Source: Chrysochromulina tobinii
Taxonomy: Eukaryota; Haptophyta; Prymnesiales; Chrysochromulinaceae
DNA length: 23,527 nucleotides
Assembly (NCBI GenBank): GCA_001275005.1
Contig: JWZX01002233.1
Coordinates: 1-23,527 of the forward strand
Reading direction: 5' to 3'
Both the position numbers and the translations under genes were made by a program. Below are positions 439 to 23,498 of the stretch, piece after piece. The notes beneath the pieces are model-generated. The model did not search any database. It was not told the origin of the DNA and worked only from the letters and a program-made list of their open reading frames with translations. How positions within the stretch are numbered: the first letter of the stretch is position 1; the number at the start of each line of letters is the position of its first letter.

Positions 439-3400
439 ATGGGAACGCCAGACGACGACGACGACGAGTCGAAAAAGGGCCACCGAGAACTGCTCACGCC
501 GGAACCCAACCAGCTCGGCAAGTACATCCAGCCGTACGCGTGCGCCACCATCCTCTTCCTCGCCTTCATCTTGATGGTCCTCTTCGGGCTGCACGACCTC
601 GCGAGCGGCTGGCACAACCACGTCGACCACTCGGACTCCACGTACACCTCGGCCGGCCGGCCGAAGAATGTCATCTTCATGGTCTCCGACGGCTTCGGCG
701 AGGCCGGCCTGACGCTCGCACGCACATACAAGAACACCGTGCTCGCGCCCCAGCCTGTGGCTGCGAGCAAGCAGCCGGCCGAGCACGTGCCGTTGTACCT
801 CGACACGTTCAACGTGGGCAGCGCGCACACTTACTCGGCGGACAGCCTGCTCACAGACTCTGCCGCGGGCGCGACCGCGTGGGCGTGCGGTCTCAAGGCG
901 AACAACTACCAGATTGCGGTCACGCCGCTCGAACGGCCGTGTGCGACCTTGATGGAGGCTGCCAAGGCGAAGGGCATGAGGACGGGGCTGGTGGTGACGT
1001 CCTCGCTGACGGACGCGACACCGGCCGCGTTCAGCTCACACGTGCGCCATCGAGGCCTGGAGCACTCGATCGCCCTCCAGCACGCCACCGACCGTACTGC
1101 TGACGTCCTCCTCGGAGGCGGCCGCCGGTGAGAGTGCATGCTGAGGCCCACTGATTGCATGCTGTACTGCTGACGTCCTCCTCGGAGGCGGCCGCCGGTG
1201 AGAGTGCATGCTGAGGCCCACTGATTGCATGCTGATAGCGGCCGCCGGTGAGAGTGCATGCTGAGGCCCACTGATTGCATGCTTTACTGCTGATTGCACG
1301 CTGAGTGCTGATTGCATGCTGAGTGCGCCACGGAGTGCGCCTCGGATGTCCCCTCGGATGCCAGGTTCTACAACGCCCCCGAGCCCCCCTCCCACCCGAA
1401 CCCGTCCCTCGCGAACCAAACTCCGACGAACCTTCTCCGCGCCGCTGGCTACGAGTATGTGGAGACGCGCGACGAGCTGCTCGCCACAGCGCTCGGCGCC
1501 GCGGTGACGAAGCGCAGCACCAAGCCGCTGCTCGGTGAGATTGCATGCTGATTGCATGCTGATTGCTGATTGCCGGTGACGAAGCGCAGCACCAAGCCGC
1601 TGCTCGGTCTCTTTGAGTCGAACCTTCCCTTCCGACCGGCTCGCATGCAAGTGCTCACCACGGCGCCCCTCACCAGGCCTCTTTAGCGAGACGAACATGC
1701 CGTATGAGATCGATCGGAGATGGCCCGAGAAATCGTCCCAGTTCCCGAGCTTGAGCGAGATGGCGATCTCGGCCGTGCAGGTACTCTCCGAGCTCGCGCG
1801 CGAGGAAGGCGCGCCCTGCATGCCCACGCTCAGCACGGCGCCCCGCCCCTCTTCCCCACAGGTGCTCTCCCAGCTCGCCGGCGAGGAAGGCTTCTTCTTG
1901 ATGGTCGAGGGCTCCAAGATCGACAAGGCCGCCCACCCCAACGACCCCGGTGCCCTTGATTGCCTTGATTGCCTTGATTGCCTCCCCCATCAAGATCGAC
2001 AAGGCCGCCCACCCCAACAGCCCCGGTGCCCCAATGTAATGAGGATCCAATCTGAGTGGATCTCCCTTGATTGCCTCCCCCATCCCAACGACCCCGGTGC
2101 CAGTTTAATGAGGAACCAAGCTGAGTGCATCCTCCACACGTGGCTGCATGCACGCGCTCACCACGGCGCCCCCCCTCCCCCTCCCCCCCACCAGGTGCCC
2201 ACCTGCATGAGATCCTCGAGTTTGATAAGACGGTGGGCGCGATGCTCCGGTTCGCAGAGCAGGTGATTGCAATTATTGGGACTTGATTGAAATGGATGGC
2301 CACCGATGGCTGCTTATGGCTACTGATGGCCACTGATGGCTGCTGATGGCCCATGTTCGACGCTGCTTGTCGGTTGCAGGACGGTCGCACCCTCGTCATC
2401 TCACTGATGACCTCCCTCACGACCTCCCTTGATTGCCTCCCTCATCAGGACGGTCGCACCCTCGTCATCTCCACAAGTGATCACGAGACGGGTGGCCTCG
2501 CGCTCGGGCGCTCGCATTTCATAAAGGACGGCAACCTGAGCGGTCCTCTCGGCGACGGCACCTTGCTCGAGGTTCATATCTCCCTTGATTGCCCTTGATG
2601 CCCCTGATGACCTCCCTGATGACCTCCCTGATGACCTCCCTCATCAGGCACCCCTCGCCACGAGAACGCTGCTCGGCGAAGCTTACGATCTGGTGGATGA
2701 AGCGTACGCTGCTTGATTGCGCCTTGATTGAGCCTTGATTGAGCCTTGATGGTCACTGAGTACCTCTTGAGTACCTCTTGATTGCGCTCCTGATGGCCTT
2801 CCTCCCTGATGACCTCCCTTGATGGCCTCCCTCATCAGGTACACCATCGAGCTCAACGTGCTGCGCAATCAGTCCAAGTCGGCTGAGTCGATGGTCGCTG
2901 CGGCCCTCGCGCACCCATCACTCGCGCTGCCCACGGGCAGGTGAGATTGCATGCTGATGACACAGGATGACGACTGATGACGGCTGATGACCACTGACTT
3001 GCCCTCGTGTGCTCGCCTCCCCCCGCAGAGCACCGACCGTGGAGCAGGTGGCTGTGAACGCGACGCAACGGGCGATCCTCGTGGGGTTGCTCCGCAATGC
3101 CCTCGAGCTCGGGTGCAATCTCGGCCCATTAACCGCATATGAGCTCGCCTTCGTGCGCTCGGCGGTGGAACTCATGGGCGCGCACCGGGAAGACGCGTAC
3201 CGGTCGCTCAGCCCACTGACTCCACAGGGTTCCTATGGCCTTGTGAAGATGCTCGGAAATGTCCTCTCGGCGCGCGCGAAATTGGGATGGTCCACTTTTG
3301 GACACACAGGCCAGGACGTCAAGGTGCGCCGCCCCGCTGATTGCATGCTGATTGCATGTGGATTGCATGCTGATTGCATGCTGATTGCGTGCTGATTGCC

Positions 3401-7806: not shown

Positions 7807-8361
7807 TGTCGACTGACCTGATCTCAAATGAACACCGCTCGAAGCGACCGCTGCGTGGCCGTGTTTCGTGTGGCTAGTGACCAAGGCGGTGCGTGTGTCG
7901 TTCTGAGCTGACCTTTTCGCGATGAAGGATGAACACACGCCACATCACACGCCACACGGAAACTCTACAAGTTAACACTGAGAAATTCAAGCTACCGCCC
8001 CTCCCCCCTCCTCCTTGGCTGTGAAGCGCAGACGGACCGTTTTTCGTGAAACGAAAAGCGTGCCCGTGCGGCCCCGCTCCAAACGTCGACGACACAAGCA
8101 ATCAACATGCAACTTGACACAAGACACGTCAGTGTGTGCCCACGACAAAAAGTGTGGATCACAACTTAAGACACATTCATAACACATTCACTTTCACACC
8201 GCACAGCAATCGTGTGGGGAAAAGACCAACGTTTTGGGAGTCCAGTTCTCAACTTTTTTTGGCGAACACAGCCTCGCAATTCTGCTTTTCGCGTCGCGGC
8301 GCGTGCGCTGCTTTTCGACGCCCGGGCTGTCGGGGCGCTCAGTGTGGCGGCATCCGCACCA
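7807..8361. other. Intergenic region upstream of the channel gene
   Basis: It holds the 3' flank of the His/Cys-rich gene and the promoter and 5' leader of the channel. Base composition is more AT-rich between about 7920 and 8280. The second AAAGACCAAC-type motif is at 8221-8260. No gene is supported. An in-frame ATG at 8212 would lengthen the channel by 50 unremarkable residues. Confidence 0.45.
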
Positions 8362-11300
8362 ATGGCGGCGAGGGTGAGCAGCAGATATGAGATGGGTCAG
8401 ACGACCCGCTCGGAGTGGGAAAAAGACATGAAGGAGCATCGCGAGCTGCTGCGGAACGTCATCGAGGAGCATCGCGAGGGGCGCGATGGGGGTGTGATGG
8501 ACTGGAGTGACATCGCGGCTGAACTCGCCTTCGAGGAGGAGAAAGTGTACCCACCTGTCTCCATGCTTGCGTCGAGCAACCCGCCTTCTGTGGTCAAGGG
8601 CAAGAGCGGGTGGATCTACCACTCGACTTCACTCGGCTGCCTGCGCCCGTACCACTTGCCCCGTCGCCTTGCCATCAACGTGGTGGAGTCGGCGGTGTTC
8701 GATCCGTTCATCCTCCTCACCATCATGGTCAACTGCACTACGATGGCGTGGGCCTCACCAATGGACCCACCCGGCACGCAAAAGCAGGACATCCTCGCGG
8801 TACGCTGCCGCCGCCGCTGATGCCGAGGCTGCCCTTGCGCGGCGGGCGCTCACCCGCCGCGCGGCGGCGCCGCGCCCCGTGGCCACTCCTCTCGCCGCTC
8901 GGGCGCGATGCCCTGGTGCTCCGTGTGGTGGCTGCGCCGCTGGCCGTGTGTGGCGTTTCTGGCCATGGCCGCTAATGCTCGGGCTGAGCCGCTGTCGCTG
9001 GACCCACTGTGTGTACGCTGACCTGATTGCTCGTGCGAGCGCTCGCAGGTGCTCGAGTGGGTGTACTTGTACATCTTCACGTTCGAGCTGTGCACGAAGG
9101 TGATCGCGTACGGCTTCCTCTTCCACAAGCACTCGTACCTGCGCGATGCGTGGTGCCAGCTCGACTTTGTCGTCGTCTCTCTCGCGTGGCTGCCCATCCT
9201 CTTCCCTTCCGTGTTTGGCAACATGTCCGCCGTCCGTTCGGTGCGTGCGCTGCGTCCGCTGCGCGCGCTCCGTCGCGTGCCGGGCATGCCCGTGCTCGTG
9301 GGCTCCATCCTGCAGTCGATGCCCGCGCTTGGCAATGTGGGTGCCCTCGCTGGCTTCATCTTCCTCGTCTTCGGCATCGTGGGCATGGAGCTCTTCAAGG
9401 GCATCTTGCACTACCGGTGCGCGCTTCCCGGGGTGCCAGAGGACGCGCACGGGATCCCTGCATCGCCCTTCGAGCGCATGCTCGCCGAGGTCGATGCGCC
9501 CGCCCTCGTGACGAGCGCCCTTGGCAACGCCGCTACTTCGGCGGGCGCGGCCCTCGCGGCCGCCTCGCTCCCGGCATTCAAGCAGCTGCTCGTCTCGCCC
9601 ACCGAGGCGCTCGCGGCACCGGTGACGGCGATGGAGGCGATGCATCTGGCCCGTCGCCAGCTTAAGGGCGGTGGTGGTGGCGTGACGAGCATGAACCCAC
9701 AAGGCTCGTTCGACACGGGCACGCTTTGCTTCGCCGACCCCTCCGTGTGCGAGGAGGATGGCACGACCTGCTTCTACTTCCAAGAGAACCCCGACGGCGG
9801 CACGATCTCGTTCGACAACGTCGCCGCGGCGATGATCCCGATCATCCAGTCAATCACCTTCGACACTTGGACCGGCCCCATGTTCGACGTCATGCTGGCC
9901 TACCATTATGACGCGTGGATCTACTTCATCGGCATCGCCGTCATCGGAGGTATGTTCGTCGTCAACCTCTTCCTCGCGGTCATCTTCGACGAGTTCATGC
10001 GCGCGCAGGCGAGCAATGATGCCGAAAAGGAGATCAACGAACGTGCGCCGAAGGGCGACCCCACCTTTGATGTGAACCAGGAGGAGACGACCGCCCTCAT
10101 CAAGGCCGGGCGAGCCATGTCCGATGGCACCGAGAAGGCGGGTCCGGGCTGCTGCGACTGCACGCCCACGGGTGGCTGCCGACTCGCGCTCAAGGAGCTG
10201 ATGACTGGCAAGACGATGGGCGACATCTCGACGGGGTTTGTCGTCTTCAACCTCGTGGTCATGTGCATGCCCTACGCGGGCCAGCCGGAGTCGTGGGAGA
10301 ACCTGACCGAGGGGCTGAGCTCCTTCATCACCTGGGTCTTCATCGTTGAGATGTTCTTCAAGATCATCGCTCTCGGCTGCAAAGGGTACTGGAGTGACAG
10401 CTGGAACTTGCTCGATGGCATCATCGTGTCCCTCTCGATCGGCGAGATGCTCATCACCATCCTCCTCGCGGACACGGGCATCAACATCTCCTTCCTTCGG
10501 ATGCTTCGTCTCCTCCGTCTGCTGCGGCTGCTCAAGGCATGGCCCGGGCTGTACAAGATTGTGATGAGCTTCGTCAAGGCGGTGCCGCAGATCTCCAACC
10601 TGTTCGTGCTCATGTTCCTGATGATGTTCATCTTCTCCCTGCTCGGCATGCAGATCTTTGGCGCCACAGGCGTCTCGGAGAACAGCCGTTGGCACTTCGA
10701 CTACTTCTTCACGGCGATGCTCACCGTCTTTGGCATCTTCACAGGCGGCTGGGTCGACGCCTTCCAGGTGTGCGCCGCGATCAACGGAGTGCTCCTGACG
10801 AGCGCGTTCTTCATCCCCGGCCTCATCATCGGCTTCTTCATCATCATGAACCTCTTCGTGGCCATTCTGCTCGAAGCGTTCGCCGACGAGGAGGAGGAGG
10901 AGGAGGAGGCGCCCGAGGAAGAAGGGGCCGAGCCTGAGCCCGAGCCTGAGCCCGTCGTGGTGGAGGTGGCCCCGGAGCCTGTACCCCTCGAGGGCGTCTC
11001 GCTCTTCTGCCTCGGCCCCGAGAATGGCTTCCGCAACGGCGCCCGGTGGCTCGTCGAGCACCCATCCTTCGACACGTTCATCGTCATCCTGATCATCATC
11101 TCGTCCATCTCCCTCGCCATCGACGTGCCGCGAGTGCCAGATGACTCTGAGCTCAAAGTCTACCTCAAGAACGCCAACTACGTCTTCACCTTCTTCTTCG
11201 TGATCGAGATGACCCTCAAGATCATCTCATACGACTTCCTCTTCGCGCCCAACGCGTATCTCAAGAGCGGCTGGAACATCCTCGACTTCTGCATTGTCAT

Positions 11301-13818
11301 CATCTCGATCCTCAGCTTCTTCGCCGACGTCGTGCCGGCCTTTGGTCAGCTCAAGTCGCTGCGTATCCTTCGTGTGCTCAGGCCGCTTCGGCTGCTCCAG
11401 CGCAACCCGGGTATGAAGCTCATCATCGGCTCCCTCATCAAGACGCTCCCCTCGGTCGTCGAGGTGATGGCCGTCGTCGGTGTCTTCCACATCGTCTTCG
11501 CCATCATGGGCATGCAGCTCTTCGCGGGCAGGTTTGGCAGCTGCACCGATGAGGAGATCACTACGCGCGCCGAGTGCGTGCCCGCCGAGGGCGAGATTCG
11601 CCGAGCTCTCTTCAACGCGCCCGCGCTCGCGCCGCCCCTCGCCGCCGCGGCGCCGCAGTACGTCGCCCCCGGGCTCGCGTTCGATGTGGCGGCGTTCAAC
11701 GCGTACGCGTACGACGACGCCGAGGTGCCGGCGCCCTTCGTGACTGCGACGCCCTCGGCCGCGCCGCTCATCGACGAGCCCGCGCTCGAGGCGCACATGC
11801 TCGCCTCCTCACAGCCGCTGCAGCCCGCCGCCATCGAGAGTGCCGCCGACAAGGCGGCACGCCTCGACCTCGCGCGTCGGCGCCACGAGCGGCGCGTGCT
11901 CATGAGCACGCGCGAGTACCGCGACGAACGCGATAAGCGGATGAAAGCACGCGCGGCGGCCGAAGAGGGGGGCGAAGAGTTCGTGGCGGCGCGCCGGCTC
12001 GGCGAAGACGATCTGCCCACCGAGTGGCTCAACCCGGCCTTTGGCTCGTTTGACGACTTCAAGTCGGCGATGCTCGTGCTTTACGTCTCTTCGACCGGTG
12101 ACGGCTGGGAGGAGTTCATGTTCGCGGGCATGGACGCGACGGGCGTCGACATGGCGCCCGTGCGCAACGACTTTTCGCCCATGTCCATCTACTTCCTAAT
12201 TTGGATGCTCGTGGGCAACTTCGTGTGCCTCAACCTCTTCGTGGGCGCGATCGTGGACAACTTCACGCGCATCAAGCAGGAGAGCGATGGCTCGGCCACG
12301 ATGACGCCCGAGCAGCAGCAGTGGGTGGCCGCTCTCAAGGAGACAATGTCCAACACGGCGGTCAAGGCACCGCGTGAGCCCAAATGGGCCCCACGCAAGG
12401 CCGTCTTCCACCTCGTGCGCTCCAAGGACTTCGACATCACTGTCATCTCGGTCATCATCCTCAACGTGCTCGCCATGGCGTGCAACTTCCACCGCATCGA
12501 GGAGACCAGCTTCTACAGCTTTTACACCCAGGGAATGATGTTCTTCACGTACTTTTACTATTGCGAGTTTGTGCTCAAGTTTTTTGGGCTCGGGTGCGCC
12601 TACTTCGGGGACACGTGGAACCGCTTCGACTTTTTCCTCGTGTGCGTCTCGTTTGCCGACCAAAACTTTTCGGAGCTCCTCGCGACTTACCTGCCCGTCC
12701 CGCCCACGATGCTGCGTATCTTGCGTGTGCTGCGCGTGCTGCGCATCTTGCGGTTGCTTCGTAACCTCAAGGGGCTGCGCGACCTCGTGATGACCCTCGT
12801 CTTCTCGATCCCGGCCCTCGCCAACGTCGGCTCCCTGCTCGGCCTCGTCATCTTCATGTACGCGGTGCTCGCGATGAACATCTTCACCTACGTGCAGCAC
12901 GGCGAAAACCTGTCGGACGAGCGCAACTTCGAGACCTTCATCTCGTCGTGCCTGCTTCTCTTCCAATGCCTCACGGGCGACAGCTGGTCGGCGCTCATGT
13001 CCGACGCGATGATCTCCGAGGAGCGCGGCTGCGACCCTCACCCCGCCGACGGCTCGCCCTCGGATTGTGGCTCGTGGTTGGCTCTCCCCTTCTTCATCTC
13101 GTTCCTGGTCATTGGCACCTTCGTGATGCTCAACCTCGTGGTCGCCGTCATCCTCGAGAACTTCACCTCGCTCGGCAACGTCAACCCCGACCTGGTCTCG
13201 CCCGACGACATCACAGACTTCAAGGAAGCGTGGGCCAAGTACGACCCCGACGCCAACGGCCAGATCCCGGCCAAGGTCCTTCCGGAGCTCGTGCTTGCGC
13301 TCGCGCCGCCCTTGGGCATCTCGGGCACCAAGGAGGGCACCTCCGCCTCCAAAGCGTACCGCTTCTGCCTCTCGCTCGGCCTCACGCAGGATAAGGGCGA
13401 GATCGCCTTCCGGCAAACGCTCGATGCTCTCATCAATAAGAACTACGCCAACAAGCAGGTTCGCGTCGCCAAGGGGCAGGACTCGCCGCCCGCGGTGCGT
13501 GAGATGCTCATGATGCGCCAGCAGACGATCTCGAACGTCGACGTGTCCAACATCACCCCCGGGGGCCTCAAGGGGCCTCTCTCGGCGCGTCGATTCGAGA
13601 TGAGCCGGATCCTCGCTGAGGAGCTGCTGCGCATGTTCATCAAGCGCAAGCGTGAGCATTGGGAAGAGAACCCGACCGCCCACCCCTCGTACCGAAAGGG
13701 CGGACCCGACGCGGCGGCAGCGGCGGCGGGCAAGGCGCCGCCCAAGCCCGCGCCCCACGCTCGCGCCCAAGCCCGCGCCCACACCCGCGCCCGCCAAGGC
13801 GGCGGCCGCCCCTGCTAA
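8362..13818 (+). CDS. Four-domain voltage-gated cation channel (Cav/Nav-like alpha subunit)
   Basis: Two exons (8362-8799 and 9049-13818) encode 1735 residues of a plasma-membrane ion channel. Four repeats each show S1-S6. S1 of domain I (residues 111-131) is in exon 1; S2 starts exon 2 with VLEWVYLYIFTFE. The S4 segments carry regular Arg: VRALRPLRALRRV, LRMLRLLRLLRLLK, LRILRVLRPLRLLQR and LRILRVLRVLRILRLLR. The pore motifs are TFDTW (D418), FTGGW (G712/G713), STGDGW (D1164) and LTGDSW (D1457), so the ring is Asp/Gly/Asp/Asp instead of the Cav EEEE. After domain IV an EF-hand-like region (YDPDANGQI, near residue 1543) fits the family. The II-III linker is Glu/Pro-rich, and the domain I and III turrets are long and Ala-rich. 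The intron at 8800-9048 is GT-AG and phase 0. The frame ends at 13816-13818, but the adjacent frame continues the Pro/Ala/Lys tail. The length suits the family; ion selectivity cannot be read safely. Confidence 0.95.
8800..9048 (+). other. Single intron of the channel gene
   Basis: A GT-AG intron of 249 bp in phase 0 separates S1 from S2 of domain I. Unlike the introns of the two upstream genes it is not built from GATTGC repeats (one isolated copy near 9023) and holds no visible copy of the neighbouring exons. It is GC-rich. Confidence 0.85.
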
Positions 13819-14804: not shown

Positions 14805-17198
14805 TTAGCCGTGCTGGGGCTCGGCGGCCAGTCGCTCGCGCGTCTCGGCGAGGAACTTTTCGACGGCGACTAGATTGGGATGGGTGGGCTCGAGCTGCGA
14901 GCTGAGCGTCTGCTGCGAGCTCTCCAGGTGGGGCAGCGCCTCCCTCCATTTGCGCTGGCTCGCGAGCACGAGGCCGATCGAGGCCAAGTCGGTCGCAGTG
15001 TGCACGTGGTCGGCGCCGTACTTGGCGAGGTCGATGGAGTACGCGTCGCGATAGGCTGCCGCGGCGGCATCGAGGCGGTGCAGATCGCATAGGCAGTTGC
15101 CAATGTTGGCGAGATCGCGTGCGACCTCGTGGTGGCTCTTGCCCAGGGCGCGCTCGTGCAGTTTGCGTGCACGCTGCTGCAGACGGAGCGCCTGCTCTCG
15201 TCGCCCATCCTGTCGGCAGAGGAGCCCGAGCACCCGCGCCTCGCGTGCAAACTCGGCCTGGACCGTCTCGGCGCCGCCGCCCAGCCCGCTCGCGCGCGCC
15301 GCGTCGAGCGCGGCCTCGGCTTGCTCGGCGCGCGCGTTGGCCTCCTCGAGCTCGTGCCGCCAGCCAGCCTCGGACTCGAGCTGCGCCCGCAGCTGTGCCG
15401 AGAGCGAGGCGTTTTCGCGCTCGAGGCGCTCACGATCCGCAGCCTGAAAGGCGGCGCTCGTCGCCATCGCCGCCGTCGCGTGGGCCAGCTGCCGGCGCAG
15501 CTGGGACACAAGCGACGCCAGCCCGCGCGGCGTCGAGGGCTCCGGAGGCGCGAGCCGCGCATGGCTAGCGGCGATGGCGACCCGCAGCGTGCGCGCCCCG
15601 AGCGCGGCCGCCGCCTTGCCGGGTCCGATGCACGCGACGAAGGACACGTCGGCGCCGCGCTGGAGCACGCGCGCGTCGTGCAGCAAGGTCGTGAGAGTGC
15701 TCTCGAAGAAGGGCGCATCCACATTCACATTCACAGCCGCGCTTGGTTCGGAGGCAGCGGACGCGCTCGAGGCGGCGCCCAGGGCCGAGAGAACTCGTTG
15801 CAACGTGTCGAGGGAGGCATCGGGCGGCAGCGCGCGCACGCTCAGAGCCTCGCTCTCGCCGCCAGTGACCGCCGCGAGCTCGACCAAGCACAGCAGGCCG
15901 CCGGCGCTGCTCGCACCCTCGGCCGCGCCCTCGGAGTCGGCGAAATCGGTGTCGGTGTCCAAGGGCGGCGGCGACTTGCGCTCGGGCGAGGCGGGGCCGG
16001 CAGAGGGTGGCGGCGTGGCGGCGCGCGCGAGCGGCGGCGTGCGCACCAGGACGATGGTGTGCACCGTCGACGGCGTCGCGCTCAGCCGTCCCATCGCGGC
16101 TTGTCGCCCCTTGTGGCAGCGCTGCAGCACCAGCAGGCCCTCGCGCGCCGATCGGGCTCCCACCCAGCTGGCCCCGTCGATGAGGGACACGGGGGTGCCT
16201 CCCTCGCGCACCGCCCCAACGTTGGGGCGTGAGAGGGCGGCGTGGCCGAGCGCACTGCTGGGCGGCGGCAGCGTGGCGGTCGCCGCGTCCGAGTCGGCCA
16301 CCGGCCCGAGGGCGTGCGCCGTGGTGGGCGGCTCCACTCCACTCGTCTCCAGGAGCACATCTATCGCGAGCTCCTCATGGATCAGCCAGCAGGCCATCTC
16401 GACGCAAGGGGCGCTCGGGCTGCCTCCCGGCTCGAAGGCGGCGCAGACTTCGGAGACGGCGCGCGGGGCGAGACCCCACTCGCCTATGTTCGTGCGCAGC
16501 AGCGTGTACGATTTGCCGCCGCCGCTCGGGCCGTAGCACATGATGCAGCCGCGACCGCCCTGCATGGCCGCCAACACCGACGGGCGCACGTGGCTGTACA
16601 CGACCGACTGGTTGGTGGATGGGCCGCAGACGGCGTCGGCGGTGCACCGGAGGGAAGTGGGCGCACCGCTCTCGTCAGTCGTCGCTATGCTCACCTGCGC
16701 CGCCTGCTCGTCCACCGCGACCGTCGAGCGCTCCTCAACGCTTGCCTCCGCGACCGTCACCGGCGGCCGCACGCGCACGACGACACGCAGGCGCTGGTCG
16801 GCGGCGCGCGGCGAGAGGCCAACGCGGCTGCTCAGTGGGTAGGCCAGCATGCTCGACGGGCGCGAGGAGGCCAGCATCCCTCCAATGTGCGTGGGCATTG
16901 CTGCATTCGTCCTGCGGCCCGCGGGCGGCTTTGTGAAGAGATGTCCGGCGCCGCCGCCCACAGAGCTGAAGCCAGCGTGCGAGCTGCTGCTGCTGCTGCT
17001 GCTGCTGCCGATGTCGGCGGACGACGAGGCCTCTGGTGCTGGCCGTCGTGCCGTGCCGCTGAACCCGGGAGAGGACACCACGCGCGCCTGACGCGCGGAT
17101 GGCTGGCTGGTGTTGCGAGGCGTGCTGAGCGTGCGCTTGGGCGACGGGCCCCGGGGCGTCTTCGAGCCGGCTCCGCCGCTGTTCACGCGAGTCGACAT
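14805..17198 (-). CDS. Kinesin-like motor fused to light-chain-type TPRs
   Basis: Intronless, 797 residues, ATG at 17198 and TAA at 14807. The N-terminus (1-135) is Ser/Pro/Arg-rich with a poly-Ser run. The motor-like region (about 136-545) has the kinesin beta-1 LRVVVRVRPP, a P-loop CYGPSGGGKSYTL (221-233), a switch I counterpart SATPSTVHTI (373-382) where kinesins have NxxSSRSH, a switch II counterpart LVELAAVTGGE (438-448) where they have LVDLAGSE, and ESTLTTLLHD (499-508) like the DSKLTRLLQD motif. A coiled coil follows (about 560-645, with RERLERENASLSAQLRAQLE). Then come TPR-like helices (655-795) with the spacing and HP/DH-type motifs of kinesin light chain. The P-loop is good but both switches are degenerate, so ATP-driven movement is doubtful; it may bind microtubules or nucleotide passively. 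The fusion would put motor and cargo-binding module in one chain. Confidence 0.88.
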   Translation of the reverse strand: MSTRVNSGGAGSKTPRGPSPKRTLSTPRNTSQPSARQARVVSSPGFSGTARRPAPEASSSADIGSSSSSSSSSHAGFSSVGGGAGHLFTKPPAGRRTNAAMPTHIGGMLASSRPSSMLAYPLSSRVGLSPRAADQRLRVVVRVRPPVTVAEASVEERSTVAVDEQAAQVSIATTDESGAPTSLRCTADAVCGPSTNQSVVYSHVRPSVLAAMQGGRGCIMCYGPSGGGKSYTLLRTNIGEWGLAPRAVSEVCAAFEPGGSPSAPCVEMACWLIHEELAIDVLLETSGVEPPTTAHALGPVADSDAATATLPPPSSALGHAALSRPNVGAVREGGTPVSLIDGASWVGARSAREGLLVLQRCHKGRQAAMGRLSATPSTVHTIVLVRTPPLARAATPPPSAGPASPERKSPPPLDTDTDFADSEGAAEGASSAGGLLCLVELAAVTGGESEALSVRALPPDASLDTLQRVLSALGAASSASAASEPSAAVNVNVDAPFFESTLTTLLHDARVLQRGADVSFVACIGPGKAAAALGARTLRVAIAASHARLAPPEPSTPRGLASLVSQLRRQLAHATAAMATSAAFQAADRERLERENASLSAQLRAQLESEAGWRHELEEANARAEQAEAALDAARASGLGGGAETVQAEFAREARVLGLLCRQDGRREQALRLQQRARKLHERALGKSHHEVARDLANIGNCLCDLHRLDAAAAAYRDAYSIDLAKYGADHVHTATDLASIGLVLASQRKWREALPHLESSQQTLSSQLEPTHPNLVAVEKFLAETRERLAAEPQHG
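16983..17008 (-). repeat. CTG/CAG microsatellite encoding poly-Ser
   Basis: A run of GCT triplets on the plus strand (AGC on the coding strand) encodes nine consecutive Ser residues in the disordered N-terminus of the kinesin-like protein. The tract is likely length-variable. Confidence 0.85.
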
Positions 17199-17800: not shown

Positions 17801-19387
17801 TCACGCGCGGAGCGGCGTGCAGACGGCCCACTGCCACACCCACGTGTCGAAATCGAAGGATGCGAGCTCGGCTGGGTTGGCCTTGGTCTGATTCTCCGAG
17901 GGGGGCGGCGCAGTCCCATACTTGTCCCGGTGCGCCTGCAGCGCCATCTCCCTCGTCGCGTCCGCCACCGGCGGCGCATCGCGCTCGCCGCCGCGCAGCA
18001 CCGCCACAATCTGGCCCCAGGCCTCGAGGCGCCTCTGGTACTCCGCCTTATGTTCAAGCGACGCGTTCGGGTCGGGCACAGCCTCGAGGACGACCCTTGC
18101 GGCGGTGACGCAGGCCTCGAGATCAGACGCTTGCACGGTGCAAGCCTGCGTGACCGATCGGCCTCCCGGCTCCTTGTCAAAGGAGAGACGAGACGCTCCC
18201 GAGGCGCGCTGCAGCAGTTTGATGTTCGCGCCCTTGGAGCCGATCAGTCGTCCAACGCAGCCGCGCGGCACCATCACATATCCCGACACATCGAGACGCT
18301 GAAGCAGTGCGAGCCGATCCTCGATGCGCTTCACTGCCACGCGGCACCCACTCTCAAACTTGTGCTTGCACACAAAATGTCCCTTCGACTTGGCCTCGGC
18401 GCCGCCACCCTCGGCGCCGCCACCCTCGGTGCCGCCCTCCTCCTCCTCCTCCGGCTCGATGTACTCGATGATGCACCCAGTCTCGCTCGCGATCGCCTTG
18501 ATGCCCGCCCCGTGCCGGCCGATGACCGCACCGGCCCATTCCTGTGGACACGGGACCTCGAGCGAGCCGCTCCACGGCGCCGCCACGACGAGCAGCGCGC
18601 CGAGCTTCTCGCGCGCCGCGTTCCCGGTGCCATCGACGAGGTCGTCCACCAGCGAGCGCGCCGCGTCCGCCTGCTCCTCCGTCCCGTCGACCGTCACGTG
18701 GCCTGTCGGCAGGGCGAGCAGCGTCGCGCCGGTATGCGTCGCGATCGCCTTGAGCATCCGTTTGCCCTCATCGCTCTTGTCGAGCAGCGCGAGCTTGGCA
18801 CCGACGGCGCGCACGTACGGCTGCTCGGCTGTGCCCAAGGTCACTCCCTTGAGGTCCGTTCGCCATGTGAGCAGATGCTCGCGCCCCTCCGCGTCCGTGA
18901 GGAAGGCGACGCCCTTGCGATTATAGATTCGGCCACCCTCGACCGTCTCGAGCGTGCCCTCCTTCTTGGCCTTCTTGTAGAGCTCGGCCGTGGTGTCGAT
19001 GACGACCATGCGCTCCCAGCCTGCGCCGACGCTCGGCAGCTTGGTCGCGTGCCCCGTGCCAGTTCCGTCCGTGAGCGTCGAGGCCACGTATTTCGCCGCC
19101 GCTGACGTGGCGTCGCCGTCATCGTCGTCGATCCAGTCGCTTCGGTCCTTCGCGCCCGATGCCGGCGCCGCCGAGTCCAATTTCATGCCCGCCATCGCCG
19201 CTGAGTCCGGCGGTGGCGGCGGTGGCGTGGGCGCGCCGCCCTCTCCGTCACCGCTGCTCGGCTTCGGCTTCGCAGGCGCCTTGCCGCCGGCGGCAGGCGC
19301 ACCGCCACCGAACATGGCCATAGCTGCCGCGCGCTTGGCCGCAATTTGCTCCGGCGTCAGCGTCGGGGGCGCCTTCTTCGAGGGCAT
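17801..19387 (-). CDS. KH-domain RNA-binding protein
   Basis: Intronless, 528 residues, ATG at 19387. The N-terminus starts with a Lys/Pro leader and TPEQIAAKRAAAMAMFGG, followed by a Pro/Gly-rich disordered stretch to about residue 80. Two KH domains with intact GxxG loops are clear: VPCPQEWAGAVIGRHGAGIK (277-296, GRHG) and VMVPRGCVGRLIGSKGANIK (371-390, GSKG). Residues about 205-252 look like a third KH fold without the GxxG loop (TGATLLALPTGHVTVDGTEE). An acidic Glu/Gly-rich insert (311-332) separates the domains. The family binds single-stranded RNA in splicing, stability or translation. The C-terminus ends in an aromatic FDFDTWVWQW. ATG 19387 is chosen because the upstream frame is Arg-rich shadow sequence. 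No named orthologue is assigned. Confidence 0.9.
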   Translation of the reverse strand: MPSKKAPPTLTPEQIAAKRAAAMAMFGGGAPAAGGKAPAKPKPSSGDGEGGAPTPPPPPPDSAAMAGMKLDSAAPASGAKDRSDWIDDDDGDATSAAAKYVASTLTDGTGTGHATKLPSVGAGWERMVVIDTTAELYKKAKKEGTLETVEGGRIYNRKGVAFLTDAEGREHLLTWRTDLKGVTLGTAEQPYVRAVGAKLALLDKSDEGKRMLKAIATHTGATLLALPTGHVTVDGTEEQADAARSLVDDLVDGTGNAAREKLGALLVVAAPWSGSLEVPCPQEWAGAVIGRHGAGIKAIASETGCIIEYIEPEEEEEGGTEGGGAEGGGAEAKSKGHFVCKHKFESGCRVAVKRIEDRLALLQRLDVSGYVMVPRGCVGRLIGSKGANIKLLQRASGASRLSFDKEPGGRSVTQACTVQASDLEACVTAARVVLEAVPDPNASLEHKAEYQRRLEAWGQIVAVLRGGERDAPPVADATREMALQAHRDKYGTAPPPSENQTKANPAELASFDFDTWVWQWAVCTPLRA

Positions 19388-19491: not shown

Positions 19492-22400
19492 TCATGCCTC
19501 GTCCTCGTCGTACTGGTCGATGCCCTTCATCTCCGAAGCCGTGTAGCCGCGGCGCTTCTCCTCGTCGCGCTTGATCCGGTGGAGCGCGAGGCGCAGGATG
19601 ATGAGCCCGACTCCCAAGCCCGCGAGCACGCTCAGCACCACGAGCACGTACAGGGTTGAGTGAGAGATGGCCTCCAGGCCCTGGTCGGCGAGCACGGCGG
19701 CCGTCAGGTCGAAGCCCACGCCGCAGTCGCCCATGTCGTACGAGCAGCTCGAGATGTTGCACCGCAGCTCGCAGATGTCGTTACCGAGGAGCGCCTTGCA
19801 GTCGAGTGGGCACAGCGTGTGGAACCGGTGCGGGTTGGCCGAGGCGCGCACCTCGCACCCGACAGCGCTCGGTGGCACGTGGCACAGCTCCCAGGGCACG
19901 CTCGGGTCCATCGTATAACACCATACGCCCTCTCGCGCGCCCCCTGGGTTACGGCATGCGTTGTGGCCGCCCAGACCGGCGTTGGGGAAGGCGGCATGCG
20001 TGTGCGTGTGCGCGTGCGGCGTCTGGTGTGACCACATCTGGCACGTGCGCCCGCTCACGCTCACGGCCACAGAGCCTCGGTAGTCGGAGCCGTTGCGCAG
20101 CACGTGGCAGCCGTCCTCGCCGTGGTCGCAGTCGGCGCCGTCCCAGCCGCACGCCTCGTTGTGGCACAGCTCGTCGCACTCGTCGTCCTCGAGCCACGAG
20201 GGCACGCACCCGTCGGAACAGCCCTCGCGCGCGGGCGTGCAGTCGTCGGCATCCCACGAGCACGCCGCATTGAAGCACGCCTCATCGCACTCGCCATCGT
20301 CCCTCCACGAGACGGGACAGCCGGTGTTGCAGATGGGCTCGCGCGCACCGCCCAGCACGGCGCCCAGCCGCGCCTCGCCCAAATAGCCGCAGTCGCCGCT
20401 GTCCCAGAAGCACGCGCTCGTGTTGCAGGACACGTCGCACACGTGGTTACCCAGGCCGCGCTCGTCGCACCCGGGCGAGCACGAGTACGCCACCGGCGCC
20501 TCCGTCGGCGCTGCATGCCCGCCGCCGGCCGCCGGCCCACCGCCGGCCGCGGCCGGCTCGGGGTCGGCGGCGGCATCGTACGGATACACGGCAAGCTTGA
20601 AGTCGCCTTCCTCATAGCCGGAGACCCCAATGTACAAGTGGCAGCTCGTCGGGTCCGCGAGCGGCATGGGTAACCCTGTGTCGCGCGCCGCCGCCGCGCA
20701 AAAGTACGGGCTCGTGCGCGGGAGCGTGAACTGCTTGACGCCGATCGAGTCGATGATCCAGGTCGCCTGCTGTCGCGTGGGCGCGCGCTGGCTGAAGGAG
20801 AGTAGAAGGTCGCTGTCTCCCGTGATAGGCACGAGCACGATCTTGAGGCCAGCGAGCGCCGGCGGCACGGCGAGCTCGTACGCACGCGTCTCGTCCTCCC
20901 TTACGCGCCCATCTGCAAAGCTGCCGAGCGTCAGCGCCGTTGAGGTGATGAGGGACGCGTCGGCAGTCTTAACGGCGGCAGGAGCGCCAGGGGCGACGGC
21001 ATTGTGCGAGGCGTCACACGCGGGAGCGGGAGCGCCTACTTGGCACGCCTCGCGCCGCATGTTGGGGAAGTCCATCGTGAAGCACCACGGACCCTCGGGG
21101 CTGCGGTCAGGGTTGCGGCAAAAGTTGTGCCCACCGAGCCCGGCGGATGGGTGCTCGTTGGTCGAGAAGGTGTGATGGTTGGGCACCTGTGCAGACCACG
21201 CCTGGCACTGGCGGCCGCTCTGGGTCGATGAGACGCGCCCGCGGTAGTCGGAGCCGTCCGCTTCGCTGTAGCATTCGCCCGCATTCCAGAAGCAGTCGTT
21301 GGCGTCGTGCTCGCACTCGGGGTTGTTGCATGCCTCGTCGCACACGTCATCGCCTACCCAGCTGTTCGGGCAGCCGAGTGAGCAACCCTCGTACTCGCCC
21401 AGCTCCCGGCGCACATGACGTGCCGCCGCCAGCGCGGCCGCGTCCCCCTCCGCCACGTCCCCCTCCGCCACGTCCCCCTCCGCACCCTGTGCGCCCTTGA
21501 CGTCCTCTGCGCCACCAGCGAGCGCGGCGATGCCGGTGCGTGCGTAGACGCGCCACCACAAAACGTACAGCGATGCACTGCAGCCAGCGGGCAGGGCGCG
21601 GGCGAGCGAGGGCTCAGCGAGCGAGGGGTCACCTACACCCTTCGCCGCGTCCTCCTCGGCCTCCGCCGCCTCCGCTACCGCCACCGCCGCCTCCTCGGCA
21701 GCGGCGGCGGCCTCGGCCAAAGCTCGAGGCACATCCCAAGGCTTCGGGCAGCGCGTTGTGATGAAGTGGGCCGCCACGGGCGCCGCGTCGGCGACTGCAG
21801 CGACTGCTGCGGGGCGTGCGACGGGGAAGCGGGCGGGCGTCAGCTCGGGGTTACTGCCGTCGTAGTGCAGGTTGAGCAGCGCCTGCTCGGTGCAATCGAC
21901 GACGCTGCGGTAGATAGAGGGGGGGCTGCCGCGCGAGAGCGCGAGCAACGCCGCGAAGGTGGCCTCTGATGGCCGGAGGCGCATCACGCCGGCGTTGAAG
22001 GTGGCGGCGTGTGCGCCCGCGGCTGCCTCCGCTGCAAAGGCGGCGGGTGAGCGGAAGAGGGACGTGGGGTCGCGCAGGAGCAGAGCGTCCGCGTCAAGGT
22101 AGAAGATCGACGAGGAGTTGGGCAGGGCGAAGAGGCGGAGTTTGGTAAACATGTGGCCCCACCGTGCATTCTCATCCGCAGCGTAGCGCACGCATCGCGG
22201 GTGGGTGCCCCACCATGGCTCGGGCAGCGACTCGATGCGTACCACCCGCCAGCCGACGCTCTCGAGCAGCGGCGTCCAGCTCTCGGGCACGGCGGCGGTG
22301 ACGAGGGCGAGGAGCGGCCGGCCCGACACCTCGACGGCGCGTATGGACGATCCGAGGGCCACCGCCCCTGCGAGGTACCGACGGTCCGCTGTCGTGAGCA

Positions 22401-23400
22401 GCGTCGCGTACGTCTCGCCGGTAACGCCGCCCGGGGCGTCCACGCCGGAGGGCAGGGGCGGCCATGCAGTTGGAGGCACCTCGATCGGCGGCACCGCGGA
22501 CGTGGCCGTGCCCACGGCAGCTGCGTCGTCGTCGTCGTTGGCGGACTCATCGATGGCCTCCTCCGCGAGGGCGCGGGTGACGAGGCCGTGGTAGAGGCGG
22601 AGTGCGGCGGGTGGCATCTGCTCGAACTCCTCGGGCCGCCAGCGCGGCGACGGCGGCGGCGCGTCCAGCCGCGACATCGCAGCGGCGAGCGCCGTCGCAT
22701 TGGGTGGCCGCACGCGCACCCCGAGTCGGCCCAACCGGGCGTGTAGCGCGTACACGGTGCGCTCGGGCTGTCGGACGAGGGCGTCGTGGCGCACGAGCAC
22801 CAGCGGCTGTGCGGCGCACGCGCGCAGCGCCTCGCCCATGTAGTGCTCCCAGATCGCGCCCCAGTGCCAAAGGGCGAGGGTGCGCGAGTAGCGCAGCATC
22901 GTTGACGCAAAATCGAGCGGGTGGCGCACGGTGAGGATGCACGCGGCGTCATGGCCGAGCAGCGGTAGCCAATCGGCCGCGGTGAGCGAGAAGCGTGGGT
23001 CTTTGATCGCCCAGCCGCCGCGGCGGTCAAGCTTCGCTACGATGGCTGTCGCCGCCAAGATGTCGAAGTGTGTGGCCACGCCGTCGCGACGGAAGCCGTA
23101 GCCGACCCAGGCGGGAAGCTCGCCGGGCACGTCTTGTGCGCCGCCGGCGAGCAGCCGCTGCATGTTGAGCCTGACCACATCGCGACGCTCGTGGTACTTG
23201 AACGGGTTCGCCTCCGACGACTGCTGCATGAGCAGCTCCGACGGCTCGCCGAGGTGCAGGCCGAGCTCGCCGAGCGCCCACGCGACGAGCGAGGTGCCAG
23301 AGTGGTGCGGGCCGAGGACAAGCACGCGCGATGAACGTGGCGCCGACGGCGAGGATGGCGCGGAGGCGGCGGAGAGGAGGCCGTGAAGCGCAATCAACAT
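19492..23400 (-). CDS. Sulfotransferase-GT8-LNR-kringle-PPC transmembrane chimera
   Basis: One uninterrupted frame of 1302 residues. Residues 1-20 resemble a signal peptide. Sulfotransferase: VLVLGPHHSGTSL (26-38) as the 5'-phosphosulfate loop and TVRHPLDFASTM (157-168) as the 3'-phosphate site. GT8 glycosyltransferase: YATLLTTADRRYLAGAVAL (331-349), FYLDADALLLRD with the DxD (433-444), NAGVMRLRPS (469-478), DCTEQALLN (502-510) and HFITTRCPKPW (545-555). Then a Notch/Lin-12 repeat (673-703), a kringle (710-786, GSDYRG, CRNPD, PWCFT), a PPC-like beta domain (about 817-942), three LNRs (974-1004, 1024-1054, 1061-1091), a second kringle (1098-1173), a fifth LNR (1197-1226), one membrane helix (1249-1273) and a 29-residue charged tail. 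It is probably a type I protein of Golgi or cell surface that adds sulfate and sugar to a glycan, with Ca-binding LNRs and kringles for binding partners. The substrate is unknown. Confidence 0.9.
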   Translation of the reverse strand: MLIALHGLLSAASAPSSPSAPRSSRVLVLGPHHSGTSLVAWALGELGLHLGEPSELLMQQSSEANPFKYHERRDVVRLNMQRLLAGGAQDVPGELPAWVGYGFRRDGVATHFDILAATAIVAKLDRRGGWAIKDPRFSLTAADWLPLLGHDAACILTVRHPLDFASTMLRYSRTLALWHWGAIWEHYMGEALRACAAQPLVLVRHDALVRQPERTVYALHARLGRLGVRVRPPNATALAAAMSRLDAPPPSPRWRPEEFEQMPPAALRLYHGLVTRALAEEAIDESANDDDDAAAVGTATSAVPPIEVPPTAWPPLPSGVDAPGGVTGETYATLLTTADRRYLAGAVALGSSIRAVEVSGRPLLALVTAAVPESWTPLLESVGWRVVRIESLPEPWWGTHPRCVRYAADENARWGHMFTKLRLFALPNSSSIFYLDADALLLRDPTSLFRSPAAFAAEAAAGAHAATFNAGVMRLRPSEATFAALLALSRGSPPSIYRSVVDCTEQALLNLHYDGSNPELTPARFPVARPAAVAAVADAAPVAAHFITTRCPKPWDVPRALAEAAAAAEEAAVAVAEAAEAEEDAAKGVGDPSLAEPSLARALPAGCSASLYVLWWRVYARTGIAALAGGAEDVKGAQGAEGDVAEGDVAEGDAAALAAARHVRRELGEYEGCSLGCPNSWVGDDVCDEACNNPECEHDANDCFWNAGECYSEADGSDYRGRVSSTQSGRQCQAWSAQVPNHHTFSTNEHPSAGLGGHNFCRNPDRSPEGPWCFTMDFPNMRREACQVGAPAPACDASHNAVAPGAPAAVKTADASLITSTALTLGSFADGRVREDETRAYELAVPPALAGLKIVLVPITGDSDLLLSFSQRAPTRQQATWIIDSIGVKQFTLPRTSPYFCAAAARDTGLPMPLADPTSCHLYIGVSGYEEGDFKLAVYPYDAAADPEPAAAGGGPAAGGGHAAPTEAPVAYSCSPGCDERGLGNHVCDVSCNTSACFWDSGDCGYLGEARLGAVLGGAREPICNTGCPVSWRDDGECDEACFNAACSWDADDCTPAREGCSDGCVPSWLEDDECDELCHNEACGWDGADCDHGEDGCHVLRNGSDYRGSVAVSVSGRTCQMWSHQTPHAHTHTHAAFPNAGLGGHNACRNPGGAREGVWCYTMDPSVPWELCHVPPSAVGCEVRASANPHRFHTLCPLDCKALLGNDICELRCNISSCSYDMGDCGVGFDLTAAVLADQGLEAISHSTLYVLVVLSVLAGLGVGLIILRLALHRIKRDEEKRRGYTASEMKGIDQYDEDEA
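21442..21483 (-). repeat. 15-bp coding repeat (Glu-Gly-Asp-Val-Ala)
   Basis: A 15-bp unit (GTCCCCCTCCGCCAC on the plus strand) is repeated nearly three times and encodes EGDVAEGDVAEGD in the linker between the GT8 domain and the first LNR. Confidence 0.85.
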
Positions 23401-23498
23401 TGTTCACGGCCTGACGAGCGAAAAAACTCGTCTTCTTACCTGACGAGCAAACATCTCGTCTTCCCACAGCCCGCGGAAGCAGAAGTGCGTCCACAGCC
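23401..23498. promoter_or_regulatory. Short upstream region with twin hairpins, possible bidirectional promoter
   Basis: Two copies of a GACGAG-loop-CTCGTC inverted repeat lie at 23413-23432 and 23442-23460, in direct tandem with a 29-bp period. They sit just upstream of the chimera's start codon and could be protein-binding sites or a leader RNA structure. If the ATG at 23499 on the plus strand is real, 98 bp serve both genes. Confidence 0.4.

Follow-up and report, generated by a model that had tools for sequence, protein, structure and literature searches.

A conserved haptophyte protein family that joins a sulfotransferase-fold domain and a GT8 domain to a modular cysteine-rich ectodomain

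Introduction

Could a single membrane-held protein of an alga both extend and sulfate a glycan while its own extracellular modules hold the acceptor? The question is raised by a complete contig of Chrysochromulina tobinii (23527 bases, hereafter the window), in which a sequence-only reading, giving no strand, had described one gene for a sulfotransferase–GT8 double enzyme with LNR, kringle and PPC modules and a C-terminal anchor. To our knowledge, few of the enzymes behind haptophyte scales and acidic coat polysaccharides have been identified, and this gene matters as a concrete, testable candidate for scale or coat synthesis, offering two separable active sites in one gene and a named haptophyte carrier. 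Using a combination of homolog searches, Pfam, predicted structures and motif alignments, our analysis points to a real, conserved and apparently undescribed family of predicted double enzymes, assembled from parts of known kinds.

Results

One open frame with the same order in diverged relatives

On the minus strand, the frame runs without an internal stop from the ATG at 23400 to the stop codon at 19492-19494, encodes 1302 amino acids (the window protein, P0001) and is preceded, two codons 5' of the ATG, by an in-frame TGA. Seven of the 13 matches of the first homolog search (P0002-P0008) cover 98-100% of the window protein, a coverage that, judged on sequence, places the co-occurrence of its domains in one frame beyond chance. 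P0003-P0008, all uncharacterised and 45-48% identical to the window protein, repeat its order identically across 98-99% of its length. Among them, P0004 (AB1Y20_001463) of Prymnesium parvum, deposited as "hypothetical" or as "Kringle domain-containing protein", carries the full order on a 7.3-Mb contig, so that the architecture is present in another haptophyte, one of the checks that the sequence-only reading had proposed. For the other six of P0002-P0008, the longest contig exceeds the coding frame by just 287-568 bases; such frame-sized contigs would fit transcripts.

Since the contig ends only 127 bases upstream of the ATG, one might suspect that misassembly or gene calling had fused two genes. 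We regard such an artefact as very improbable: P0002-P0008 hold the whole order on separate contigs, the frame is open throughout, and its two halves are alike in GC content at third codon positions (0.852 and 0.869). Because the six diverged proteins P0003-P0008 share the order, one of them on the long P. parvum contig, a join of two genes is refuted at the genomic level, and the claim that one continuous frame links these parts holds.

Two enzyme folds in the N-terminal half

The second of the two enzyme domains resembles glycogenin in fold and motifs. In the window protein the Pfam GT8 model (PF01501) scores 12.1 bits at residues 337-451, under its cut-off of 24.3, which five of the seven homologs scanned pass (P0003, P0004, P0007, P0009 and P0012) and P0011 and P0013 fail. 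The family GT8 profile finds glycogenin-1 with E 8.5e-31, fold and profile both match solved GT8 enzymes, and all 50 structures listed by Foldseek for the N-half model are glycosyltransferases. D436-A-D438 and H545...K553-P-W are present in every one of the 13 members of the first alignment; across the 22 family sequences, 21 have DxD and 19 have KPW. The likeness to glycogenin has its limits: two residues are inserted ahead of KPW, the solved glycogenin chains contribute neither a sulfotransferase half nor an LNR/kringle ectodomain to the match, and the segment IYSYLPAF, whose tyrosine we take to be the self-glucosylation site of glycogenin, is aligned to an Ala/Ser/Val-rich family consensus. 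That tyrosine thus appears not to be conserved in the family, in an alignment that is loose at this point.

The sulfotransferase domain is recognised chiefly by its fold and its cofactor loops. Sulfotransfer_3 (PF13469) reaches 23.3 bits at residues 26-224 of the window protein, under its cut-off of 27; it matches seven of the 13 members of the first alignment at E<=0.1 and exceeds the cut-off in none of the seven homologs scanned with Pfam. In the predicted structure the sulfotransferase fold is recognisable, with strand-loop-helix at both cofactor loops as in human TPST1, which, with its peptide, is the only sulfotransferase among the 50 structures in the VIA listing, at row 49. A profile of the domain found no sulfotransferase in the PDB (two matches, both with E over 0.1 and unrelated) and no match in NCBIfam. 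By alignment, the 5'-phosphosulfate-binding (5'-PSB)-like loop reads HH-S/T-G/A-TS in all 17 family proteins whose sequences include it, the remaining five lacking that region; the same number keep both KDPR and R159 with Ser or Thr at +8, a 3'-phosphate-binding (3'-PB)-like R...S/T pattern accompanied by Lys. Four proteins outside the family (P0022, P0027, P0028 and P0030) share KDPR and have the loop HRSGTS. The statement that the catalytic motifs of both enzymes look intact therefore stands for GT8, whose DxD, EQ and H...KPW are well kept, and needs qualifying for the sulfotransferase, whose loop has His where these four non-family matches have Arg. On the alignment, the sulfotransferase site is recognisable yet bears an invariant Arg-to-His change.

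A cysteine-rich ectodomain

The C-terminal half has the order LNR-K-PPC-LNR-LNR-LNR-K-LNR-TM (K, kringle; TM, transmembrane helix). Pfam finds two kringles (PF00051; 146.4 bits against a cut-off of 34.3) and five LNRs (Notch, PF00066; 94.2 bits against 21.2), each with six cysteines. All 44 cysteines of residues 661-1240 are accounted for by the five LNRs and two kringles, at six apiece, and by two in the PPC-like domain, with none in the linkers. That two enzyme folds share one protein with LNR, kringle and PPC-like modules, as had been read from the sequence, is supported by Pfam, predicted structure and motifs; the modules are, however, five LNRs and two kringles rather than one of each. 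The PPC assignment stands as a fold: the top Foldseek match of the predicted beta-sandwich is the pre-peptidase C-terminal domain 5sv5 (E 2.0e-5, TMt 0.66), consistent with a PPC/collagen-binding beta-sandwich, whereas the Pfam PPC model (PF04151) matches neither P0001 nor a nine-member alignment, and a profile of the region found nothing in the PDB. As the AlphaFold2 (AF2) model of the C-terminal half is poor (mean pLDDT 41.3), we used only its beta-sandwich, where block means are mostly 52-82, and left the packing of kringles and LNRs uninterpreted. A kringle lysine-binding site is not claimed: compared by eye with plasminogen, neither kringle has the full acidic pair after RNP.

Membrane topology

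Every one of the 13 members of the first alignment has a hydrophobic segment near its C-terminus, and in the window protein the charge flanking this segment changes from -2 before to +3 after; the predicted C-terminal membrane helix, with a 19-mer Kyte-Doolittle value of up to 2.7 and a positive tail, is thus upheld. Compared with P0003-P0008, P0001 shows 46-62% identity in the tail against only 31-40% in the helix, which argues that the tail is under constraint. The N-terminal signal that had been proposed fares less well. A short hydrophobic start is there, with a best 11-mer of 1.89 in the window protein and of 1.49-2.62 in P0003-P0008, and a signal peptide is likely by hydropathy. The arrangement also seems to differ from that of a type II Golgi enzyme, in that the strong helix is C-terminal and the sulfotransferase domain begins at about residue 25 without a stem, the N-terminus being judged by hydropathy alone. 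Type I orientation is accordingly likely rather than proven, since the N-terminal stretch is weak here and that of P0008 passes the membrane-helix threshold. A further hydrophobic stretch at 843-861 was rejected as a membrane helix, for it falls inside the PPC-like domain, and P0001 and P0002 are the only two of the 13 aligned proteins in which it reaches the 19-mer threshold.

A family with exchangeable ectodomains

Three homolog searches, each limited to scoring the 7994-7997 candidates with the most shared words, yielded 27 distinct proteins at E<=0.001. We left out as non-family P0014 (kringle, receptor-like), P0022, P0027, P0028 and P0030 (bacterial-type) and P0029 (GT8 with an FAD-type domain), so that the family comprises 22 sequences, namely 21 database proteins and the window protein. 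Kringle and LNR are listed together in 18 of them. Of the other four, P0013 ends in a Pro-rich C-terminus that contains a membrane helix; P0020, P0025 and P0026 appear to have been truncated or misread in gene calling. P0009 and P0010 lack N-terminal parts. In P0011, P0015-P0019 and P0021 the ectodomain is of another, Pro-rich kind, with LNRs and a single kringle. P0015-P0019 and P0025 hardly differ from one another and are not independent sequences. In P0011, P0015 and P0017 the kringle scores slightly under the Pfam cut-off (31.9-32.7 against 34.3) and is listed in precomputed tables. In P0012, whose sulfotransferase domain is incomplete at its start, a GH7 domain (match 8pof, E 6.3e-12) replaces the PPC-LNR-kringle part. 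This cellulase-like domain occupies about residues 540-900, behind sulfotransferase, GT8, LNR and kringle, and its EIDLIE is aligned with GH7 ELDIWE.

The C. tobinii genome (own-genome scans of a 53-Mb assembly of 2253 contigs) holds relatives of each half. Contig C984 (L009, 4721-7896) encodes a second sulfotransferase–GT8 pair in two frames, presumably separated by an intron; its C-terminus differs, being rich in Pro and Cys and carrying a membrane helix, at which the contig ends. Contig C1093 (L010, 3587-5911) encodes a 775-residue frame whose LNR-kringle-PPC-LNRs-kringle block is colinear with, and 37% identical to, the C-terminal half of the window protein (E 3e-93), and in which Pfam found neither enzyme domain. 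Because enzyme pair and module block thus occur apart, they look as a swappable substrate-binding part would, and the family presents animal-like LNR and kringle modules as exchangeable parts of algal glycan enzymes. The scan counted at least seven kringles on five contigs and at least 16 LNRs, of which the window holds two and five. The C1093 frame also has a stretch rich in Pro and what looks, by eye, like a helix at its C-terminus. Long frames on C2172 (L013, 2-5101) and C1570 (L012, 3060-5765) combine one kringle each with repeats of the IPT/TIG domain, a plexin-like make-up.

Discussion

We give a probability of roughly 60% to the reading that the window protein is a haptophyte type I membrane double enzyme for glycan tailoring, in which GT8 and sulfotransferase domains act on an acceptor held by the ectodomain. 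The N-terminus would direct it into the endoplasmic reticulum and secretory pathway; once in the lumen of the Golgi or on the cell surface, the GT8 domain, to judge from motifs and fold, would move a sugar from a UDP-sugar with the help of Mn, while the sulfotransferase-fold domain would move sulfate from 3'-phosphoadenosine 5'-phosphosulfate (PAPS), with one growing glycan or glycoprotein receiving both. The membrane-adjacent Cys-rich LNR-kringle-PPC ectodomain may bind and position a glycan-bearing protein or fibre, by analogy with GlcNAc-1-phosphotransferase, and the C-terminal helix and conserved tail may hold and sort the enzyme. That relatives retain both enzymes and exchange their binding modules is what one would expect were the substrate chosen by the modules.

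By analogy, the scale or cell coat is the most likely destination. Cellulosic scales that form in vesicles derived from the Golgi cover most haptophytes (PMC6930497), and in Phaeocystis, sulfotransferases and glycoside transferases have undergone expansions that the authors of PMC12480563 connect with scales and filaments. It is these scales, these expansions and the GH7-bearing P0012, none of them evidence on this protein itself, that make the scale coat our best guess. The main text of a coccolith proteomics paper reports glycosyltransferase-domain proteins and mentions sulfotransferase, kringle, LNR or Notch nowhere (PMC11685980).

Several observations weigh against the glycan-tailoring reading. 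The connection to scales rests on other proteins; the window protein falls under the Pfam cut-offs for both enzymes; membership in GT8 cannot reveal the donor sugar; and the N-terminal stretch is weak in the window protein and, in P0008, long enough to pass the 19-mer threshold of a membrane helix. In addition, Arg or Lys is the rule before S-G-T in the 5'-PSB loop, and H33 occupies this position in all 17 covering members. We take R79 of TPST1 to be the loop Arg and K159 to lie in the KDP motif, so that H33 would correspond to R79 and K133 to K159. Since the loop residue is His throughout the family and Arg in the four non-family proteins, sulfotransfer could be altered or lost.

The consequence might be that GT8 is the sole enzyme, the sulfotransferase fold persisting as a catalytically dead domain that binds PAPS, 3'-phosphoadenosine 5'-phosphate (PAP) or glycan, and the catalytic set of TPST1 (R79, E100, K159 and S286; PMC5562738) gives this some force. 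We nonetheless think it unlikely: loop, KDPR and R...S/T are conserved among proteins only 44-53% identical to the window protein in this domain, which disfavours a decaying site, and the His is itself invariant, a paralog in the same genome likewise having HHSGTS and KDPR. Alternatively, the protein might modify other proteins, sulfating tyrosine and glycosylating protein, with the ectodomain as a protein receptor. This would suit the peptide-bound TPST1 in the structure listing, the type I topology of plant TPST (PMC6272617), which is also a precedent for the topology proposed here, and the presence of Skp1 galactosyltransferase among the GT8 matches; as the nearest outside sulfotransferase by sequence (P0027) shares its chain with a glycosyltransferase and the PDB sequence search yielded no sulfotransferase, we hold it to be distinctly unlikely. 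Least probable of these three is that one chain serves both as enzyme and as proteoglycan, the GT8 domain starting a glycan on its own ectodomain and the sulfotransferase sulfating it at the membrane. Glycogenin, which primes on itself, is the nearest solved relative, the big Cys-rich ectodomain lies in the same chain and has an enzyme-less sibling in the genome; the apparent absence of a conserved tyrosine opposite IYSYLPAF, within that loose alignment, speaks against self-priming.

Returning to glycan tailoring, a bolder version is conceivable, though we consider it doubtful: a haptophyte-specific type I family that makes and sulfates a glycan in one chain, whose interchangeable substrate-holding ectodomains (LNR-kringle-PPC, Pro-rich or GH7 cellulase-like) would dock on the cellulose-protein scaffold of scales, add acidic sugar and so link a bacterial-type polysaccharide sulfotransferase to the algal scale coat. 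The possible bacterial source of the sulfotransferase half is suggested by P0027, whose sulfotransferase domain is 40% identical to that of the window protein, passes the Pfam cut-off with 34.9 bits and shares a chain with GT4, not GT8; LNR, kringle and PPC-like modules are not listed for it. Its source appears bacterial-type, to judge from its own domains and from the label Acidimicrobiia on P0022. P0022 and P0028 have GT2/GT4 domains and no Pfam sulfotransferase match at E<=0.01. A search of named bacteria for the P0027 arrangement returned nine loci, none over the sulfotransferase part (matches start at residue 361 or later), and a candidate bacterial fusion was set aside, the two functions being separate genes in PMC13390465. 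Scans of viral and genome contigs with the family profile gave 10 and 25 pattern matches, of which none was confirmed, in a method whose short exact patterns may miss diverged relatives; within that limit, an origin of the complete architecture in giant viruses or prokaryotes was set aside.

Contrasting with the window protein, human TPST is type II (PMC5562738) and lacks a GT8 half, and its loop Arg, taken to be R79, is replaced by His in the window protein. GlcNAc-1-phosphotransferase (GNPTAB) is likewise a glycan-modifying Golgi enzyme whose Notch repeats help recognise a protein substrate, but its core is Stealth, and its domain list in PMC11418123 includes no sulfotransferase, GT8 or kringle. 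The ichthyosporean LOXOb similarly combines kringle and Notch domains with a membrane region in a protist enzyme, which is a lysyl oxidase with PLAT and not a glycan enzyme (PMC4448552). Among the literature searched, which omits most subscription papers, we found no description of a sulfotransferase-GT8-LNR-kringle-PPC combination; the family combines known parts, and its P. parvum copy was already deposited as a hypothetical protein.

Other features of the window

Table 1. Positions of the double-enzyme gene and its parts in the window
Feature	Residues	Window position	Strand	Basis
Whole coding frame, 1302 aa plus stop		19492..23400	minus	open frame; homologs over 98-100% of length; upstream in-frame TGA
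Short hydrophobic N-terminus, likely signal peptide	1-20	23341..23400	minus	hydropathy only
Sulfotransferase-fold domain	25-230	22711..23328	minus	Pfam, predicted structure, motif alignment
Sulfotransferase motifs	GPHHSGTS 30-37 (5'-PSB-like), KDP 133-135, RHPLDFAST 159-167 (3'-PB-like)		minus	alignment
GT8 (glycogenin-like) domain	327-630	21511..22422	minus	Pfam of homologs, family profile, predicted structure, motifs
GT8 motifs	DxD 436-438, EQ 505-506, H545...KPW 553-555		minus	alignment
LNR 1	669-704	21289..21396	minus	Pfam, cysteines
Kringle 1	705-796	21013..21288	minus	Pfam, cysteines
PPC-like beta-sandwich (predicted)	819-942	20575..20946	minus	predicted structure, Foldseek; no Pfam match
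LNR 2, 3, 4	969-1096	20113..20496	minus	Pfam, cysteines
Kringle 2	1097-1183	19852..20112	minus	Pfam, cysteines
LNR 5	1194-1228	19717..19821	minus	Pfam, cysteines
C-terminal membrane helix	about 1249-1271	19588..19656	minus	19-mer Kyte-Doolittle up to 2.7; limits by eye
Predicted cytosolic tail	about 1272-1302	19495..19587	minus	positively charged at membrane; conserved RRGYTxxEMKG-type motif

Just 5' of the start codon, at 23413-23460 on the minus strand, an inverted repeat GACGAG...CTCGTC occurs twice in tandem, with CAGGTAAG between the copies. The next gene downstream encodes a KH-domain protein (17801-19387, minus strand), its ATG 104 bases past the double-enzyme stop. Elsewhere, the plus strand carries a frame that encodes an N-terminal portion of an alkaline phosphatase (313-1131; 132.6 bits) and a 1589-residue voltage-gated channel-type frame (9049-13818) with four Ion_trans stretches (675.5 bits) and a GPHH domain like that of L-type calcium channels, and the minus strand a 797-residue frame (14805-17198) that combines a kinesin motor domain with TPR repeats.

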